From: Pleurocapsa sp. CCALA 161
GTDB taxonomy: Bacteria; Cyanobacteriota; Cyanobacteriia; Cyanobacteriales; Xenococcaceae
Assembly: GCF_003003995.1 (NCBI RefSeq)
Contig: NZ_PVWF01000015.1
Span: 1-58,673 of the forward strand
Direction of reading: 5' to 3'
Length of the DNA stretch: 58,673 nucleotides
The notes beneath the pieces were generated by a model that was given only the letters and a program-made list of their open reading frames with translations, was not told where the DNA came from and did not search any database. Of the stretch, positions 4,877 to 52,725 are shown piece by piece. The position numbers and the translations under genes are program-made. Every line of letters starts with the position of its first letter. Position 1 is the first letter of the stretch.

Positions 4877-6787
4877 ATGTTAAAGCTATTTCTAAATCTT
4901 TTTTCCAGCGAAGCCAAGTCAACGCAGACGGCTATCGTTAAGTCTGATGTCTCCAAATGGGAGGCGCAAATTGCTCAAGCGGATACTTTCTGGGAACAAG
5001 GAAAAATAAGCGAAGCTGTGGCAATTTATGATTTAGCAATTGAACAACATCCTCACCTGCCAGAAATTAAGCAGCGTTTGGCAGGGCGTATGAAGCACCA
5101 GATAGATCTTGCCATCGCTTACCAAAAATTAGCTATCAGTTTAAAAAAACAGGGCAAAATTGAACAAGCAGCTAATTACTATCGTCAAGCAATTAGTCTT
5201 AAAGCCCTAACAGGAAATACTAAAAATCAATTATTAGGTTCTCATGTTGCTCCTGTCAAAAAACCGCCAATTCCTGTTGCTAGTTTAAAGGAAGCTGCCT
5301 TTTCTTTTCAGCCCTTGACTAACAATTTGGCGATCGCTAGAGTGAGATCGCTATCCCCAAGCTTGCCTAACCTTGAAGCAGTAGTTGACCCCACTCCAAG
5401 TTTTTCGCCCCGCATTAAGGCAATTAATCCTGAACAGGCAAAACAAATAGATTGGGAAACGGCACAGGTTTACTTCCAAAAAGCACTAGACCATCTTGAA
5501 AAGCAAGAATGGGAACAGTCAGCATTAGCTTGTAAACAAGCCACGCAAATCATGCCTAAGATGGCAGAAGCATATAAAATTTGGGGTAATGCTCTCCAAA
5601 GAATGGGTCAAACTGGAGAAGCCATGGCTTGCTATGCTAGAGCGGTAGAGGTGAAACCTAACTTAGCTGATGTATACGCGGGTATTGCCGATATTTATGC
5701 TCAACAATTAAAATGGCAGCAGGCAATCAAGCATTATCAAAAAGCGATTATTATCAAGCCCAGTGCCAAAACCCATCGCAAACTAGCGGCAATCTGGGAA
5801 GAAGTTGGTGAAACTGAGAAAGCAGAGTTTAGTCTTGATCGGGCTTCAGAATTGGAGTTATCTGACAGCTCAACTAGCAACACCCCCAATTCAGAATTAG
5901 TAGCAATCAACCACAATAATATTGAAGAGGCTGTAGCGTCTTATTGTCAGGCAGCAAGGCAGTTGGAGCAAAATAACCAGTGGCAACTAGCAGCAAAATA
6001 CTATCGGCAAGCTGTCAACTTAAGTATGTCACGCCCTGCTTTAGCTGCGTCTAAATCAACTCACAATCAGCCAGAGTTATCTCAAATACCTTCGTTTTCA
6101 CAGCAGCCTCAAACAAAAGATGTTTTCAGTCAATTAGACAAAGCAATTCAACGTTATCATCAGCAAGCAAAGTTGCAGCCTAGCTCTCCTAAAATTTTTA
6201 CAGATCTTGGCAATCTTTACGCTAAAAAAAATAAGTTCTCTGAAGCGATCGCCTGCTATCATCAAGCGATTAAGTTAAACCTTAAATATCCTAATGCACA
6301 CCTAGGTTTAGCCAGAACTTTACTCAAAGCTGGCAAGCAGCAAGAATTTGTTAAGGAGATGCAGCTAGCTTTGGCTTTACAGCCCAATATTGGCACGGCA
6401 ATAGATCGATTCTCTCTGGCAGATGCCTTGGTTGAGCAGAATCAAGAACAACAGGCAACTGGTTTTTATCATCAGGTAATAACTCTCGATCCTACATTTT
6501 CTTCTTCATATCATCGTTTAAGCGATCTTTTAAGTAGGCAAGGAAAACACGAACAGGCGATCGCATTGTTAGAACAAGGAATTAGGCAAAATCCACATAA
6601 TCCCGAATCATATTATTTATTGGCCCTTCAATGGGAAAAGCTGGAAAATTGGGACAAGGCGGTCAAAACTTATAGTCAAGTACTGCAAATAGAGCCTCAA
6701 TATCCTGAAGCATCGAAAAAGTTAAATCATGCTTTAGCGCAAAAACTGAAGCGTAATCTTCAAATGCAAAATAAATCTAATCAATAA
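4877..6787 (+). CDS. TPR-repeat protein
   Basis: A 636-residue protein made mostly of tetratricopeptide repeats, which form helical protein-binding scaffolds. Repeat signatures such as AEAYKIWGNALQRMGQTGEA, FTDLGNLYAKKNKFSEAIAC and SYYLLALQWEKLENWDKAVK are spaced at 34-residue intervals. They cluster at roughly residues 25-110, 185-320 and 415-620. The linkers between clusters are rich in Ser, Pro and Gln. There is no signal peptide, TM segment or enzymatic domain, so it is probably a cytosolic adaptor. The partner is unknown. It lies alone between groEL and the gene-less stretch before recN. Confidence 0.8.
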   Translation: MLKLFLNLFSSEAKSTQTAIVKSDVSKWEAQIAQADTFWEQGKISEAVAIYDLAIEQHPHLPEIKQRLAGRMKHQIDLAIAYQKLAISLKKQGKIEQAANYYRQAISLKALTGNTKNQLLGSHVAPVKKPPIPVASLKEAAFSFQPLTNNLAIARVRSLSPSLPNLEAVVDPTPSFSPRIKAINPEQAKQIDWETAQVYFQKALDHLEKQEWEQSALACKQATQIMPKMAEAYKIWGNALQRMGQTGEAMACYARAVEVKPNLADVYAGIADIYAQQLKWQQAIKHYQKAIIIKPSAKTHRKLAAIWEEVGETEKAEFSLDRASELELSDSSTSNTPNSELVAINHNNIEEAVASYCQAARQLEQNNQWQLAAKYYRQAVNLSMSRPALAASKSTHNQPELSQIPSFSQQPQTKDVFSQLDKAIQRYHQQAKLQPSSPKIFTDLGNLYAKKNKFSEAIACYHQAIKLNLKYPNAHLGLARTLLKAGKQQEFVKEMQLALALQPNIGTAIDRFSLADALVEQNQEQQATGFYHQVITLDPTFSSSYHRLSDLLSRQGKHEQAIALLEQGIRQNPHNPESYYLLALQWEKLENWDKAVKTYSQVLQIEPQYPEASKKLNHALAQKLKRNLQMQNKSNQ

Positions 6788-7302
6788 AAAAGATTTTTAT
6801 AAATTAATGTCGGGCTGAAAACTCATGCGTCTTGTACCTTGAGATGAAAGCCCGACCAGGAAACAAACATCCGAAGGATACCGCTTAAATCGAGAACTTG
6901 AACTTAAAATCAAAATCTGAAATAATACAATAACTACAAATGAAAGAGTCCGTTCTGATACATGGCATCCCAACAGGGAAAGAGGAATTGTAAGCGACGA
7001 CGGGTAGCTCCCTTACAGAGGCGTAACAACGATATTGTAGTCGAACCATGAAAACTTAAAGTTAGAGGTTCTGTCGAAGAATACGTCCGACAGGTAAAAA
7101 CTTTAGCGTGAGCGTAAAAAACTCTAATTCTCTCTTCTACCTTTGGGTCGGAAGAGCAGGGCGTGACACCACGCGGTGTGGCAACTTTGGTTGTCTTGTC
7201 AATCGTCCGAACGTAACGCATCATTTGGTGTAGTTACAAGCTGCATCCGCTTGTCGGTGCAGTAATTGACTATTAGTTCCAGCTAGCCCTAACCTTATAT
7301 AG
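6788..7302. other. Gene-less, apparently structured region before recN
   Basis: About 510 bases without a convincing gene. The stretch looks visibly richer in G and C than other spacers here and contains many complementary segments. These include GTCGGGCT (6809-6816) with AGCCCGAC (6849-6856), TGTAAG with CTTACA near 6990-7015, CTGTCG with CGACAG near 7073-7095, CTCTTC with GAAGAG near 7134-7158, and ACACC with GGTGT near 7165-7180. A 96-codon minus-strand frame (6934-7224) crosses it but has no recognisable protein features. It may be a structured RNA or the eroded end of a transposon, for example an IS200/IS605-type end with its non-coding RNA. I could not match it to SRP RNA, RNase P, tmRNA or a group I or II intron. 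Confidence 0.45.
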
Positions 7303-45260: not shown

Positions 45261-46184
45261 CAGGGACAACGCATCTAAATCCCCAAAGCTAGACAGAAAA
45301 AGAACTTTAAAAAGTTTTAAGCTTCAAATTAAATTTAATATCTGCATGAAAACTCGTTAATAGTAAACATGACTTACTTTTATCTGAACAAAGAAAAGTT
45401 GAGATACCAGAAATAAAGAAGAGTTGTTTTCTTCTTCATTCTGGATTGAATTTTGATGAGATATTTCTAATTAAGTAATAGTTCTCGAAGATAATTATTA
45501 TCCCAACCTGCTTTTTTTCGCTTGCCTTTAATACTGCCTTTAATACTTTTATGTTGCTTGATTAAATTCAAAGCTATATGTCTAATAACCGCCAAGTTTT
45601 CAGGAGCATTATCTTTTCTTATTCTAGAACCATCTTCATTAAAACCTACATCTAATACCCAGGGTAAGCTGATTTTCAATCCCCCAATGTCCTCGAATAT
45701 ATTCAGCTAATTGTTGAGCATCCTGAGACAAGCTAGTGATAAAATATCTATTCTCATGCTTTATTTTACCATTCTTCAATTGGCGAATTGATTCAAGATG
45801 AACAACTGAATTTAGGTTCGACCATTTCTTTGGGGAATCTACAAGTTCTTGGATGTCATTTAAAACATGATAACATCTTTGTTCAGTACGACCATGACCT
45901 GATTCATATACAATATAATTACTAGGGAAAAAGTCATTTTTATTCTCAGATAAAGCTACTTTAAATAAGTCATCTACTCGCTTATACAATCCGCCTTGGT
46001 TCTTTTTTAATGTAATCAAATAATCAGCTTGTTGATTCACTATTTGATTTACTATTTTGGTCTGACAGCCCATTGCATCTAAGGTTACAATTGCTCCTGA
46101 TAATTCTAAAATTTTTAATAATTCAGGAACTGCTGTGATTTCATTTGATTTTTTAGCTACCTTTTTTTGTGCTAGAACTAATCT

Positions 46185-46237
46185 GCCGACCGAGCCTGAA
46201 TGCATTCAGGCTCGCAAGCGGCAGTGCATTCCGCACC
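46185..46237. repeat. 53-bp palindromic insertion in transposase gene
   Basis: The segment is centred on the perfect 22-bp palindrome that starts GAGCCTGAATG and ends CATTCAGGCTC. Homology of the flanking transposase sequence (AWAKE before, RLVLAQ after) defines its limits. It is 53 bases, so it shifts the frame. It belongs to a different family from the CCTAAAGGA repeats. Confidence 0.75.
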
Positions 46238-46255
46238 ACTTTCTTTCGCCCAAGC

Positions 46256-46279
46256 ATATGCGGAGCGGTATCCTTTAGG
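46256..46279. repeat. 24-bp CCTAAAGGA repeat, in frame in transposase
   Basis: On the minus strand it reads CCTAAAGGATACCGCTCCGC plus ATAT and adds exactly eight codons (PKGYRSAY) between VMVT and AWAKE. It shares its core with the repeats at 20045-20106, 22092-22143 and 46565-46619. Confidence 0.75.
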
Positions 46280-46564
46280 AGTGACCATTACAATTGCTGC
46301 TTGTTCAGAATTATGGTCATACGAATGACGTAAAGTTTTACCATCTATAGCAATTTGTGACCCTGATATTAACGAATTAATAGATTTAATCCAATTCACA
46401 AAACATTTTTCTAATTGTTGCGGGTCTAAACGTGCAAATACTCGATTAAAGGTATCATGTGATGGAACTCCGTTTGGCAATTCTAAAAATGATTTGAACC
46501 AATCATATTTACATTCGCCAAATAATTCTATATCATCCCATGTCTCGGCTCCGCTAATTACCGC

Positions 46565-46619
46565 ATATGCGGAGCGGTGACGGGAGCGAAGCGAGCTAAT
46601 CCTTTAGGAATCCTTTAGG
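46565..46619. repeat. 55-bp CCTAAAGGA repeat in transposase
   Basis: On the minus strand it starts with two overlapping units, CCTAAAGGATTCCTAAAGGA, and ends ACCGCTCCGCATAT, the same end as the 24-bp copy at 46256-46279. It interrupts the frame after ITLC and brings in a TAG stop; downstream the transposase resumes with AVISGAETWD. Confidence 0.75.
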
Positions 46620-46926
46620 ACAAAGGGTAATTGTAATTATATCAATTAGCTTATGCCGTTTAGTTCTATCTATTCTGGGATCTTTTATCGCTGAAAAATG
46701 TTCTTCTATTGTGGTTTTGGGGCGTAATTTCACTACAAGATTGAAAACCCTTATCTTTCGGTAATTATAGTGATCATACCATCCATCATTAAAATGAATT
46801 TTCTCAGCTCATTTTAATTTAAGTCATTCTATAGAAGCTTTGAATACTACTTCTCTTCTTTCTTGACTTTTTTAGCTCTTTTTCAGAATTACTAACTATC
46901 GCTCAATTTAAGATGCGTTGCCCCTG

Positions 46927-47219: not shown

Positions 47220-50200
47220 CTAGCCTTGTTCTTCAGAATTTGGTTCATTATTTTGTTGATTTCTGCTATTGTTTCCCGCTATTGACTGGAGGCGAGTTAG
47301 TGACTGGATGACTTGGTTTGCTTGTGGAACTGCTTGAGTTTGGATCACTCCTGAAACTGGCGCAGCAGTAGTCATAATCTTAGTTCGGCTTTGAGATTTC
47401 CAATGCTCATAGCCCAAGATGGGGAAAGAGGCCACTTTCTTCGCCAATGCCCAAAAGAAAACATAGCTTGCCAACAGTCGTTCAAATGCAGTAAAGCGTG
47501 ATTCTCTTAACTCTTCAATTAAAGCCTTTTGCTCTTTACTATGTTCGCTTTGGAAGTAGACAGAATCATTGCGCAGATGGAAATGCTCATCATCGCTATT
47601 GAGAATAATCGCGTTGGTAAAACCTTTATGAGCTATTTCAGGATTAGACCCCATCACCACTACTTCTGGTCCAACATCAATATTTCGAACACCATCAGCT
47701 TGTTTCCCAGTCATAATTACAGCATTTTCTTGATGTTTGAGCTTATCGCTTTTTCTCCCGTCAGGTACCCCTAGAAACATTAAAGTGCCTCTGACAACTC
47801 GATGTCCAAAATCGTGTAACAAATCGTCCTCTGGATTAGCTCCATGCACATCAAGAGAGGCGATGCCGTATGCCGTAGCTGAGAGAAAACAATTTGCTGA
47901 CATAGTTCTTCAGAAGCTGATTTACCCAGGGAACATCGCCAATAACCAAGCTTCTCTTGCCAATTCTGGCTAGCAGCTCTCTACCCTGAACGTAACGTAT
48001 TCCCAGAGTCCATAACCATGAGCCAAAAATATAGATTCCGATATCGATTAAAGTGACAACAGAATTAATCAGTTGAAGAACAAAGGAATCTTGAGGTATT
48101 GGAAGTAGCCAAAGTAAACTTGCTAAGAGTGTTTTTGCTAAAGGGATTGTATAGCCAAAGGGAATTGCCCAGCCCACAGTTATTAAAATATATAAAGCGT
48201 GTATTGCCCAAGCAGTAGGAGTTTCGATAATATGCCAAGCCCACTTACGACCACTTTTAATTAGTTCTTTTTCAATCGAAGAATCAATTTTTTTCCCTGT
48301 TGGGGTTGCTCCCATAATTTGCACTACACTAACCTCAACAAAGTCATCCTTCATGTTTTCTAACACGGCAATGCTTTGGGATGTTAAAGTCATGCCAAAA
48401 GGTGGTGTTGAATTGGGCAAAGCTTGCTTAATATTTTTAGCTAAATACAATAACAACTCAGTCAAAGTCTGCTGGGCTGCTGCCACAGCAACTGTTGCTG
48501 GTTCTGACGTTCTGCGTCCACTACCATTAACAAAAATTTTGTGATAATGTTCTTCCAGCTTAGCTTCTTTGACTTTAATTACAGGCGAACCCAAAAAACT
48601 GCCCAATTCTCCAGTTAAAAGAAAAAGCTCCTTGATTTCTCCTTGACGATATAGCTGATCTAAAGCATTGATTGCCTGAATAGTTGGAAAGGTTTGACCT
48701 GATTGAGTAACAGCTAAGATGATTGAATCTTTCCCCAATTGTAAACTGCCAAAATTATGTTTTAATTGCTGCAAAATTTGATTAGAGGAAACACTACGAA
48801 CATTCAGCCAGGGAAAAATAATTCTTAAATCCTGGCAAAATCTCTCTCCTAGCCAAAGGCTATTTTCTATCCCAATAATTAGCAAATCAACTGTGGGCAA
48901 TTGTCTACTCAACTTAGATAATCCTGCTCTCAGCATTTTTTGCCTTTGCTGATCGAAGTTACGAGCTTTTTCGCTTAATAGTTGAACTAAATAATCTGCA
49001 CTTTGACAATTAAGAGAGTCAGGATTTTTCCAATCTAACTTTATTTCTTCAAAAATAGCTGGAATTTCTTGATTATCGCTAGCAATCGGATCTTGGGTAT
49101 TGCAAGTAGGATATTTTACATGAGGTAAATAAGGATGATTTTCCATAGAAATCCATCTATCTTCTAGTTGCAAATAATTTAATTCTTCGCCTTTTTCCAG
49201 AGAATAGATGCTGATTTCGTTAGCACTCACCAAAGCAATCTCTCCTTCTTTTTGGTTTAAATCTAAACGCAGAGATTGTGGAAGGTTTAAAAGCACTGCA
49301 TCAACAGCAGCTGGTTCGGAGGCATAAACCATATAATTGTCTTGCTTATTAAAGCCAATTGACATTGGCTGCCCTTTTGCGCCGATCACCAGTCGTTCTT
49401 TTTCTAAAGTAGAGACGACAACTAAGCCAAAAGTGCCGATCGCTCCAGCCATGAAGGTTTTAGTCGCTAGATTGAGATCGTTATGGAAGAAAGCGTGAAT
49501 TGCAGTTCTCACAAAATTGACCCTTTTTTGCCACGACCATTGACTAATCATATCGTCCTTGGCAATTACCTGGAGCACATCTTGTTCTAAACGGTACAAG
49601 TATTGGTTACAGGCAGGAGAATCGGGTGCTGACAATAATTTACGGTACAGCATAAAAGTATTTTCAAATACTTTTGCCCAGTTACTCAGTTTTAATATTG
49701 TTGCAGCCGTATTAGGAGCATCTCGATGGGGAGTTTGTCCCTCAAAGGAAGATTCGATGGAATCAGCACCCGCCAAATGATACGCTAATCTCGCCGAAGC
49801 ATACCACATTCCTTTGGTTACCAAAAGATCGATCATTCCCGCAATTTTGGGGGAATCTCCCAAGGCATAATTATATGTATGCAATGCCCGCTCTAACCAC
49901 AATCCCAACGCCTCATTAGATACCTCTTGGTTATATAGCGTCCAAGCATCAAAATCTCCGTTGTGGGTAATACGATGATTAATATTTTTGTCTCGACAAA
50001 CCCATTGACCTTCTGTAAATTCCCAAACTCTTTCAACCCTAGCGCTCATCCATTCATGCCAGTGAGTTTCTATGATCGCAGGAGGGCCACTAGTGCCAAA
50101 CCGATAATGCCATACTCCCGTAGTTGTCATTTCTAAAGGGGCAATACCGTTGTTTTGAGATTTTTGTCGAACCAACGCGAAAGCTCTCTCCAGAGAATTA

Positions 50201-50871
50201 GTCAGGTTATCTCGTTTACGATTAACAAGTTTATCACCGACAAAAACAAGCTGCTTGTCTTGGTTTTGGGCTATTACCAACCCCCCACCAGCTTGTTCTC
50301 CGCGTATCTCCGTTTCTCGCCCCATTTGATAATAAATGTTTGTCATCCTTTCAGACAAAAGTAGATCTTCGTCATCTTTTCGACGTTGACAAATAAAGCC
50401 AAAATTACCACAATAAAAATTTTCACCTATTCCTGTAGCCAAGGTATAAAAATCTGTCCAAGAACAAAAAGCAATTAATAAATTGGCAACGGTAAAAGCT
50501 TGACAAAAAAGTCTAAAAAAATAGGGAAGAGAAAGATTACTACTACAAATTACAAAAGCTGTTGCAGCAGCAAGTAAATTAAAAGAGATGCCCCCTATAG
50601 CTTTTGATCGTATCCGCCAAGGAACTGCATCTCCTGCTGGTATTGAAGGATAATCTTCATGCTTGATTCCTGATAGAAATGGGATGAAAATTGGCGCACC
50701 AGGAATTAATGAGCTTAATGTATTTGGGTTATTTCCAGCTTTGAGCAGATCACTAATGTTATTGAATCTTAAAGTTGATTGTCTATCTCGATCAATAGCA
50801 GATATAGCTACAGCATGAATATTGTCTGCAAAAAATAGTGTAGTATTAACAAAATTTTGTTGACATTTCAA
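47220..50871 (-). pseudogene. Membrane GlmS-like amidotransferase/SIS protein, frameshifted
   Basis: Two overlapping frames (50871 to 47851 and 47903 to 47220) make one gene. A tandem duplication of 7 bases (TGCCGTA at 47864-47870 and 47871-47877) shifts the frame; deleting one copy gives 1,214 residues plus a stop. Two TM helices (about 92-138) precede a class II glutaminase-like domain: NFYCGNFGFICQ with Cys about 154, EIRGEQAGGGLVI and ITHNGDFDAW, as in GlmS. An SIS-like region (about 655-810, LLIGIENSLW, VTQSGQTFPTIQA) follows, then several TM helices (about 880-955) and a soluble tail with DLLHDFGHRVVRGTL. Whether it is dead, switchable or a sequencing error is open. Confidence 0.85.
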
Positions 50872-51024
50872 ATATTAGGTATGTAGAGGTTATGTTGTAA
50901 GTGATTGCCTATAGTCTATTAAACATTAATATTTATTAATTTTAATTAAAAATTACTTTTGTTTTTAGACTTTTTAAAAAAAGTTGCCGAAAGTTTTTCT
51001 ACTAATAAAGATACATACCCAAAT

Positions 51025-52725
51025 ATGAATAGAGTATTTCGCAAACTTAACCTCCAGATTGCTCCAATACTTTTGTTTCCCCTGTTAATAACTGCATTAA
51101 CAGGAATAATTCTAGGCTTAGGTAATCGTCTAGGAATTTTGCCGACAGTGGTGATTGATGCTCTCTTGGTAATTCATCAAGGCAAATTTTTAGGTGAAAA
51201 AATAACTCCTTATTATGTTTTATTTCTAGGTTTAGGAGTGCTGATAATTGGTTTAAACATTCTCATTAAAGTTAGAGATATTCTCATATCTAAAAGAACT
51301 AAATCCCTTGCCGTTAATATCTACAAAATTATAGCTTTAATGGTAGTTTTTCCTTTAGGTGTTTGTGTAGAGACTGGTGTAGCTTATCGATTGGGAACAG
51401 ATTGGTTAGATCTAACTAGTCAACAAACAGCAATATTTTTGTCTCTACACACAGGAACTCCATTGACAACGATTCTTGGAATCTCTTATACATTAGTAAC
51501 GGGTTTTAGCTTAATTTTATTATCTATCATAGGTGTGGAAACTAGTTTAATTACTGCTCAAACATCATTATCTCAAAATGAACTGATTTCTTCTTTGATT
51601 CCAGTTGAACAAGCATTTAAATCTCCTCTAACTTTATTAGATAATATTGCACTGCTGCGAAAAAAAATCCGTAATGTAATTATAATTTTCTCCTTAATAT
51701 TTCTAGTTATTCTTTCTTTGGCAACATCAACAATTTTACTTTCATTATCAATTGTTGTTATTGTTTTCACTCTTCCTGCTTTGTTTATAGCCGAACGACT
51801 AATTCAAGAGTGGCAAGAACAGCAAGAAATTCAGCCTCAACTTGAAGACTCTGAAAGTGAAAGTGCGACTATACTTAGAGCTATTCCTGATTCTATGTTG
51901 CGAATAACCGAAGGCGGAATTTGTTTAAGCTATATTCCAGCTAAAGACGCTAACTCGTTTATAATCAGAGGAGAAATCATTGACAAACATATTAATGAGT
52001 TTTTAGATCCTAAAATAGCCTTACGGTTTATCAAGTATGCTCAGCTATCTTTAAAATCTGGTTTAACTCATTCCCACCGCTTTGATCTACCTTTAGATAA
52101 TGGTGGGCGACAATATTACGAAGCAAGAATTAGTTCTATTGGGATGGCGGAAGTATTGATTATAATTCGTCAGCTTTATGATTTAAATCAAATTTTAGTC
52201 AATTCAGAGCATTCATTAAATCATAGCAGTCAAGATACAATTTTCTTGTTAAGTGAACCAGAATTAGCAGAAATTTTGGAATTGACTTTAGAACAGATTG
52301 CTCAAAACGATTACCATCACGTCATCTGCTGTTTGGTTATTGACGATTTAACTATAGACTTTAACTCAGAAGCAACTTCTAACTTACAACAAGATCCTCG
52401 ACTTAGTGAAATTTTGATGTATCAGATTGCAGCTAAAATTAAGTTGCATTTATCATCAGATTATGTAGCTCGTCTAAGCGATCGCGAATTGGTCACATTA
52501 GTACTTAACTGTTCCTTAGACCAAGCATCTATATCAATTAACAAACTACGAAAAGATTTAAATAAATTTTCATTTCAGTGGCAAGGTAATGAATATCCGA
52601 TTAATACCAGTGTCGGCTTGCTAGAAATTAATGCAGACAACGATAACCCAACCGATTTACTTAATGTAATCAAAGCAACTTGTAATATTGCTAAACAAAA
52701 GGTTGAGATTAAGACTTTTTGGTAA
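51025..52725 (+). CDS. Membrane protein with PAS and degenerate GGDEF-like domain
   Basis: 566 residues from ATG 51025; an in-frame TTG at 50959 would add 22 residues. The start, VFRKLNLQIAPILLFPLLIT, resembles PepSY-type TM proteins. Six or so TM helices occupy about 10-260. A PAS-like domain follows (about 275-385; ILRAIPDSMLRITEGGICL). The C-terminal domain (about 410-565) has the fold pattern of a GGDEF cyclase, with CCLVIDDLTIDF, RLSDRELVTLVL in place of the GGDEF strand, and a closing VGLLEIN. The catalytic motif is lost, so it is probably a receptor or scaffold. It diverges from the GlmS-like gene. Confidence 0.68.
   Translation: MNRVFRKLNLQIAPILLFPLLITALTGIILGLGNRLGILPTVVIDALLVIHQGKFLGEKITPYYVLFLGLGVLIIGLNILIKVRDILISKRTKSLAVNIYKIIALMVVFPLGVCVETGVAYRLGTDWLDLTSQQTAIFLSLHTGTPLTTILGISYTLVTGFSLILLSIIGVETSLITAQTSLSQNELISSLIPVEQAFKSPLTLLDNIALLRKKIRNVIIIFSLIFLVILSLATSTILLSLSIVVIVFTLPALFIAERLIQEWQEQQEIQPQLEDSESESATILRAIPDSMLRITEGGICLSYIPAKDANSFIIRGEIIDKHINEFLDPKIALRFIKYAQLSLKSGLTHSHRFDLPLDNGGRQYYEARISSIGMAEVLIIIRQLYDLNQILVNSEHSLNHSSQDTIFLLSEPELAEILELTLEQIAQNDYHHVICCLVIDDLTIDFNSEATSNLQQDPRLSEILMYQIAAKIKLHLSSDYVARLSDRELVTLVLNCSLDQASISINKLRKDLNKFSFQWQGNEYPINTSVGLLEINADNDNPTDLLNVIKATCNIAKQKVEIKTFW

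Follow-up and report, generated by a model that had tools for sequence, protein, structure and literature searches.

The window, a stretch of 58,673 nucleotides from Pleurocapsa sp. CCALA 161 (contig NZ_PVWF01000015.1), carries on its minus strand a damaged gene divided between two overlapping ORFs in different frames, one of 1006 aa with a TTG start and one of 227 aa (Table 1). An earlier sequence-only reading described this region as a single protein of 1,214 residues. That figure joins two overlapping ORFs that sit in different frames, in a copy that is damaged. The glutaminase motifs of that reading, among them RGEQAGG and HNGDF, and the motif of its SIS-like region (TQSGQTF) are all present at the positions listed in Table 1. 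The Cys placed at about residue 154, behind transmembrane helices, is residue 154 of the 1006-aa ORF and follows two hydrophobic regions (residues 91-115 and 118-139). The further helices expected past the SIS region correspond to hydrophobic regions at 887-911 and 930-956, after SIS1. A weaker hydrophobic stretch lies inside the glutaminase (468-486); all five were identified by hydropathy. The two ORFs were taken separately in profile scans, and the structure of the gene was read from its intact relatives.

Table 1. Features of the damaged gene in the window (window coordinates).
Feature	Position	Strand	Basis
5' ORF (1006 aa): what is left of the N-terminal membrane domain, then glutaminase, SIS1, inter-SIS membrane segment, SIS2 start	47851..50871	(-)	ORF, relatives, coordinates
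First 18 codons of the 1006-aa ORF: former intergenic DNA, joined via the ~0.8 kb deletion; present start fortuitous	50818..50871	(-)	Comparison with L005
Remaining N-terminal membrane domain: last His of HxxGH, GISFN, NLLIAFCSWTD, linker FY before Cys	50413..50817	(-)	N-domain alignment, coordinates
Catalytic Cys codon, residue 154 (Cys1 of class II amidotransferases)	50410..50412	(-)	Conservation, coordinates
Class II glutaminase domain, approximate limits	49201..50412	(-)	Motifs, conservation, fold match including glutaminase-domain entry 1xff
Motifs inside the glutaminase	RGEQAGG 50304, WHYR 50112, HNGDF 49965, GDSPK 49860, GTFGLV 49437		
Helical insert in the glutaminase, ~110 residues, absent from GlmS; limits approximate, taken from the paralogue model	49444..49806	(-)	Secondary structure, motif spacing
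SIS1, approximate; TQSGQT phosphate-loop motif at 48708	48412..48894	(-)	hhalign, model, fold match, coordinates
Membrane segment between SIS1 and SIS2, approximate	47986..48273	(-)	Paralogue model, hydropathy
SIS2 start (RSLVIGDVPW ... SKLFSLSYG), ahead of the frameshift	47872..47955	(-)	Alignment, fold match, coordinates
Site of the 7-bp duplication (frameshift)	47861..47880	(-)	Comparison with L005
3' ORF: remaining SIS2 and C-terminal tail; homologous from ~47867 onward	47220..47903	(-)	ORF list, comparison with L005

The damage is apparent against L005, the closest intact relative, which comes from a Hyellaceae metagenome genome and shares aligned DNA blocks that are 91-94% identical to the window. 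About 0.8 kb of L005 (bases 6235-7029) is absent at window position ~50818. This deletion removed the true start, the first ~50 codons, the first membrane segment, and all of the HxxGH motif but its last His. Near the 3' end, a 7-bp duplication relative to L005 shifts the frame. The dN/dS ratio between the two copies is 0.13 over 960 codons (79 synonymous and 40 non-synonymous differences), so any decay of the window copy is recent. By this sequence comparison, the gene in the window was broken recently, barring errors of assembly at the lesions. Just downstream of the gene, the window has ~1.66 kb (45267-46923) that L005 lacks at the corresponding site. It contains two transposase-like ORFs, with DDE_Tnp_1 and the domain associated with it, which overlap in different frames, so the element looks broken. 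The genome also encodes an intact paralogue elsewhere (L002; 1222 aa, 53% identical). A second broken family copy (G289:C85; L018, L020, L067, and L069) is split over frames and lacks the start of the glutaminase.

The window gene belongs to an apparently undescribed cyanobacterial family of membrane-built GlmS relatives. A genome scan with the window ORF recovered 15 loci, all with cyanobacterial record titles. Profile searches of 388 genomes from the order and 388 from the class gave matches at E <= 1e-30, fragments included, in 22 and 18 genomes, respectively. Among 292 genomes of the phylum searched with a single protein, three matched, one of them with a weak GlmS-type match. Phyla beyond cyanobacteria were covered by the close-relative scan alone, and the cyanobacterial record is the scope of these data. 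Plasmid and phage collections gave no match for the L010 protein. During locus sampling, 10 loci were skipped at the start, two fragments (L041 and L042) and 17 near-copies were dropped, and 41 loci were kept. The main alignment comprises 39 of these rows, without L047 (a short fragment) and L061 (at a contig end, with no Cys), and does not include the window copy. One 198-residue frame (L070) looked like a free-standing membrane domain and was rejected, as its contig ends just past CGNFG.

The modelled core of the family is the whole GlmS fold, consisting of a class II glutaminase and two SIS halves that a membrane segment separates. An AlphaFold model covering the first 1193 of the paralogue's 1222 aa (pLDDT 79.5, pTM 0.68) has GFAT and GlmS as its best Foldseek rows (E 6e-14 to 2e-13). 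It matches human GFAT and E. coli GlmS over ~1000 alignment columns, which is their whole length, and this places glutaminase, SIS1, and SIS2 in one chain. The match to E. coli GlmS (2j6h) has an E-value of 1.7e-13 and a TM score of 0.71 by target length; glutaminase-domain entry 1xff (E 8.9e-6) and isomerase-domain entries are matched as well. A GlmS-like fold was the test set beforehand for the sequence-only reading, which this whole-length match leaves unrefuted. Compared with GlmS, the model shows an added membrane domain at the front and ~110 extra glutaminase residues, with helices within 384-507. Long helices at 904-999, hydrophobic by hydropathy, separate the SIS halves. Confidence is low in the linker at the Cys (177-182) and in part of SIS2 (1031-1061).

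Profile searches detect the same relationship weakly. NCBIfam GlmS models match 15/15 family members (best E 2.9e-8) with scores far below the curated cut-offs; for TIGR01135 (GlmS), the window ORF reaches 21.2 bits and L014 18.6 bits, short of the cut-off of 418.05. In an hhalign comparison with the genome's own GlmS, the 39-row profile aligns over the latter half of the glutaminase and the beginning of SIS1 (E 6.9e-5, probability 63). Pfam returned nothing above cut-off on the family proteins, DUF2777 on the 3' ORF (E 0.0029) being below its cut-off. A PDB sequence search yielded no match with the full profile and one chance match with the window ORF (E 0.98).

Conservation of the residues typical of class II glutamine amidotransferases (Ntn, MEROPS C44), whose roles we take from motif alignment, is nearly complete. 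The catalytic Cys and the RG pair occur in all 39 aligned rows, and the pocket Arg, Asn, and Asp each occur in 38. The catalytic set is kept alike in rows that carry the N-terminal membrane domain (fused) and rows that lack it (unfused). The glutamine pocket proposed by the sequence-only reading is therefore upheld by its conservation, with one correction: motif alignment assigns the pocket Arg to WHYR, not to RGEQAGG. The sole exception among the 39 rows, L065 (1330-5004), keeps the Cys and has lost all three pocket residues; from its sequence, it is perhaps a non-catalytic descendant.

The isomerase half gives a more mixed picture. The SIS1 loop, T/S-Q-S-G-Q-T, is kept in the 39 rows with few exceptions. 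Together with the whole-fold match and a glycosyltransferase neighbor in 5/39 loci (one member scanned), this loop would suit a membrane-bound GlmS isozyme that makes glucosamine-6-phosphate from fructose-6-phosphate near the membrane, whether or not the leader is removed. We consider this improbable, as a canonical GlmS is separately present in the window's genome and the isomerase site may be altered. According to PMC9272926, Glu488, His504, and Lys603 are the residues used by E. coli GlmS for isomerisation. The position of Glu488 is occupied by Ser in 33 and Ala in 4 of the 37 rows with letters there, an assignment made by eye with an SIS2 placement unconfirmed by hhalign.

A membrane domain of ~160-240 residues precedes the catalytic Cys in 31/39 rows. 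The remaining eight lack it and start exactly at Met-Cys, and an in-frame stop codon lies 2-6 codons ahead of that Met. The membrane domain was thus never seen at any place other than ahead of the Cys, and genes without it begin one codon before the Cys. These homologues support the earlier proposal that a Cys behind a membrane domain needs exposure. Judged by sequence, the Cys lies at the mature N-terminus in 8/39 rows, and the other 31/39 would need cleavage. In the fused rows, the junction mostly reads F-Y or F-N, followed by C-G-N-F-G. Three related members (L027, L029, and L048) have Cys-Cys at this place (FCCGNFG). An internal translation start could in principle yield a short active form from the fused genes with no cleavage, as the Met-Cys beginnings of the unfused forms might suggest. 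Of the 31 fused rows, however, 22 have Tyr before the Cys, 5 have Asn, 3 have Cys, and 1 has His. Because no start codon stands there in any of them, we reject this route as extremely improbable.

The trees call for more than one switch between the fused and Met-Cys forms. On quick trees with SH-aLRT support, the fused/unfused label needs five changes among 37 rows (without the partial L016 and L066), four of them forced by well-supported branches. It needs four changes, three of them forced, among 35 rows (also without the long-branched L065 and L039). A single origin is rejected (p 8.4e-6). Rooted on L065, the tree has seven fused rows as its first branches, which makes loss of the membrane domain the simplest direction; the changes could include regain of the domain by recombination. 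An N-domain search of 13 genomes, eight of which carry unfused rows or near-copies, matched five. The profile found no N-domain in 7/8 genomes with unfused rows (G436 being 88% complete), and in the eighth, G674, found it only in a fused paralogue.

The N-terminal membrane domain is itself conserved. In the 31-row N-domain alignment, the invariant residues (L002 numbering) are Arg47, Trp50, His57, Gly60, His61, Pro95, and Lys127, followed by Ala128, Gly131, Asn135, Ser165, Asp168, Gly175, and Cys182. The order of its HxxGH, GxxxN, and S/T-D motifs recalls site-2 proteases. One explanation is accordingly that the domain is a working metalloprotease of this type, cutting the junction or other membrane proteins. 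The two invariant His residues four apart, and the GxxxN and Asp motifs in plausible order, are consistent with this idea. Compared by hhalign with 12 cyanobacterial M50 domains, the N-domain aligns over the 14 columns of the HxxGH helix and nothing beyond it (E 1.5e-5, probability 80). The catalytic Glu, however, is replaced by Gly in 30/31 rows (HGxGH); the HExxH signature of Peptidase_M50 has its Glu only in L005 (HELGH), and a working protease is correspondingly unlikely. The HELGH of L005 (6875-10618) otherwise occurs only in its near-copy L024, and the region was later deleted in the window's lineage.

Pfam and Foldseek searches with the N-domain also speak against a working site-2 protease. 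Pfam gave nothing significant, with Peptidase_M50 reported in 1/31 members at E 0.61, and hhalign with M50 profiles aligned only 12-14 columns. The N-domain model (182 aa, pLDDT 93.6) has no significant Foldseek match in the PDB (best E 1.7), and no site-2 protease is among the best 50 of 165 rows. NCBIfam returned scattered single matches, the best being HpnL (1/31, E 0.0097), and a PDB sequence search with the N-domain profile gave one chance lipase match (E 0.5). Descent from site-2 proteases is thus a lead rather than a membership, as kinship was not established by profile or fold searches. The window's genome encodes a Peptidase_M50 relative (L079, 1258-2751), in whose translation no HExxH motif is visible.

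Gene neighborhoods were surveyed in 39 loci, leaving out near-copies L108, L110, and L111. A same-strand gene lies within 200 bp upstream in 14/39 loci; the other 25 have none, in some cases since the contig ends. Six of the 14 upstream genes belong to a receiver/HisKA cluster, three to a Ser/Thr-kinase cluster, and two to a cluster whose scanned member is DUF3050, with three others. The receiver-type gene is separated from the family gene by 6-10 bp in four Met-Cys loci, and the receiver cluster occurs anywhere in the locus in 15/39. Scanned neighbors, which are examples and do not stand for whole clusters, include a Tll0287-like sensor kinase, a SulP-type transporter with STAS and cNMP domains, and a glycosyltransferase. 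In the window, the gene is adjoined by a divergent membrane protein with a GGDEF domain (50959-52725), whose cluster neighbors 6/39 loci. In Hyella patelloides, a Tle1-like phospholipase-domain protein (L007, 6316-7518) follows the family gene after 144 bp.

On these sequences, the gene setting leans toward signalling over amino-sugar synthesis, and most loci have no fixed partner. The link to signalling is partial because 25/39 loci lack a close same-strand upstream gene. No result pointed to a membrane transporter, which the sequence-only reading had also thought conceivable. The same setting bears on another explanation, in which the long form is never cut and the membrane domain locks the glutaminase fold as a glutamine-binding nitrogen sensor in the membrane, the Met-Cys forms perhaps being enzymes. 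Kinase or receiver genes stand close upstream in 9/39 loci (scanned examples), and 51 bp upstream of the intact paralogue lies a Ser/Thr kinase with a Peripla_BP_6 domain (L083, 2431-4815). L065, without most of the pocket, would also fit a sensor. A pure sensor, however, would not need the Cys in every row, and the full catalytic set is present in 38/39, fused and unfused; we regard the sensor as unlikely, if less so than an isozyme or a working protease.

We favor, at a probability of roughly 60%, a membrane glutaminase/amidotransferase that is synthesized as a precursor and released when its chain is cut ahead of the Cys, where we infer the cleavage, the acceptor, and the signal. The long form would be an inactive precursor. 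Most likely the Ntn Cys itself would cut the bond before it, as happens in other class II amidotransferases, perhaps in response to a signal sensed by the membrane domain. Once free, the Cys would hydrolyse glutamine beside the membrane, and the ammonia would pass to the SIS half, whose acceptor may be other than fructose-6-phosphate. According to PMC9140057, class II enzymes remove leaders of a few residues autocatalytically. That these known leaders are a few residues long and not a membrane domain counts against the precursor, as do the loss of the pocket residues in L065 and the low model confidence at the Cys linker and in SIS2.

A more specific form of the precursor model is offered tentatively. 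The membrane domain may be a disabled, metalloprotease-like domain that became the folded, signal-gated propeptide of an Ntn enzyme, holding a GlmS-type glutaminase inactive in the membrane until the bond ahead of the Cys is cut; several lineages would have bypassed this switch with a restart exactly at Met-Cys. If so, nitrogen chemistry would be switched on irreversibly by a membrane signal.

If the precursor model is true, the family contains a GlmS-fold enzyme built into the membrane, with a whole membrane domain as its leader. The repeated, exact restart at Met-Cys would serve as a natural experiment on the requirement of Ntn enzymes for a free N-terminus. With this family one could also test directly whether an amidotransferase can be gated by a membrane domain, and the family may point to an unstudied glutamine-linked pathway in cyanobacteria. 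The N-domain is of interest in its own right, as a confident model with no significant PDB match among the best 50 of 165 Foldseek rows.

Among the matches listed in the open-access literature, as titles and abstract openings, there was no paper on such a protein, which agrees with the sequence-only reading, whose author knew of no described system with this layout. To our knowledge, neither the membrane build nor a domain-sized leader has been reported for the GlmS/Ntn family. Like the N-domain, site-2 proteases (Peptidase_M50) carry HxxGH within a membrane helix and have Asn and Asp motifs after it; the N-domain differs in its Glu-to-Gly replacement and in the lack of significant Pfam or Foldseek matches. 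With GlmS and GFAT, the family shares the order and fold of the glutaminase and both SIS halves, and conserved N-terminal Cys chemistry. It differs by the membrane segment between SIS1 and SIS2, usually by a membrane domain before the Cys, and by the helical glutaminase insert of ~110 residues. Cleaved leaders occur in PurF and glutamate synthase. As in class II amidotransferases of the PurF type, the Cys would have to become N-terminal by loss of the preceding residues, here on the strength of sequence. PurF-type leaders, however, are a few residues long, whereas the leader of this family is a whole conserved membrane domain whose cleavage is predicted. The fold and chemistry are thus those known from GlmS and Ntn enzymes, and the membrane build and the domain-sized leader are apparently the new part.
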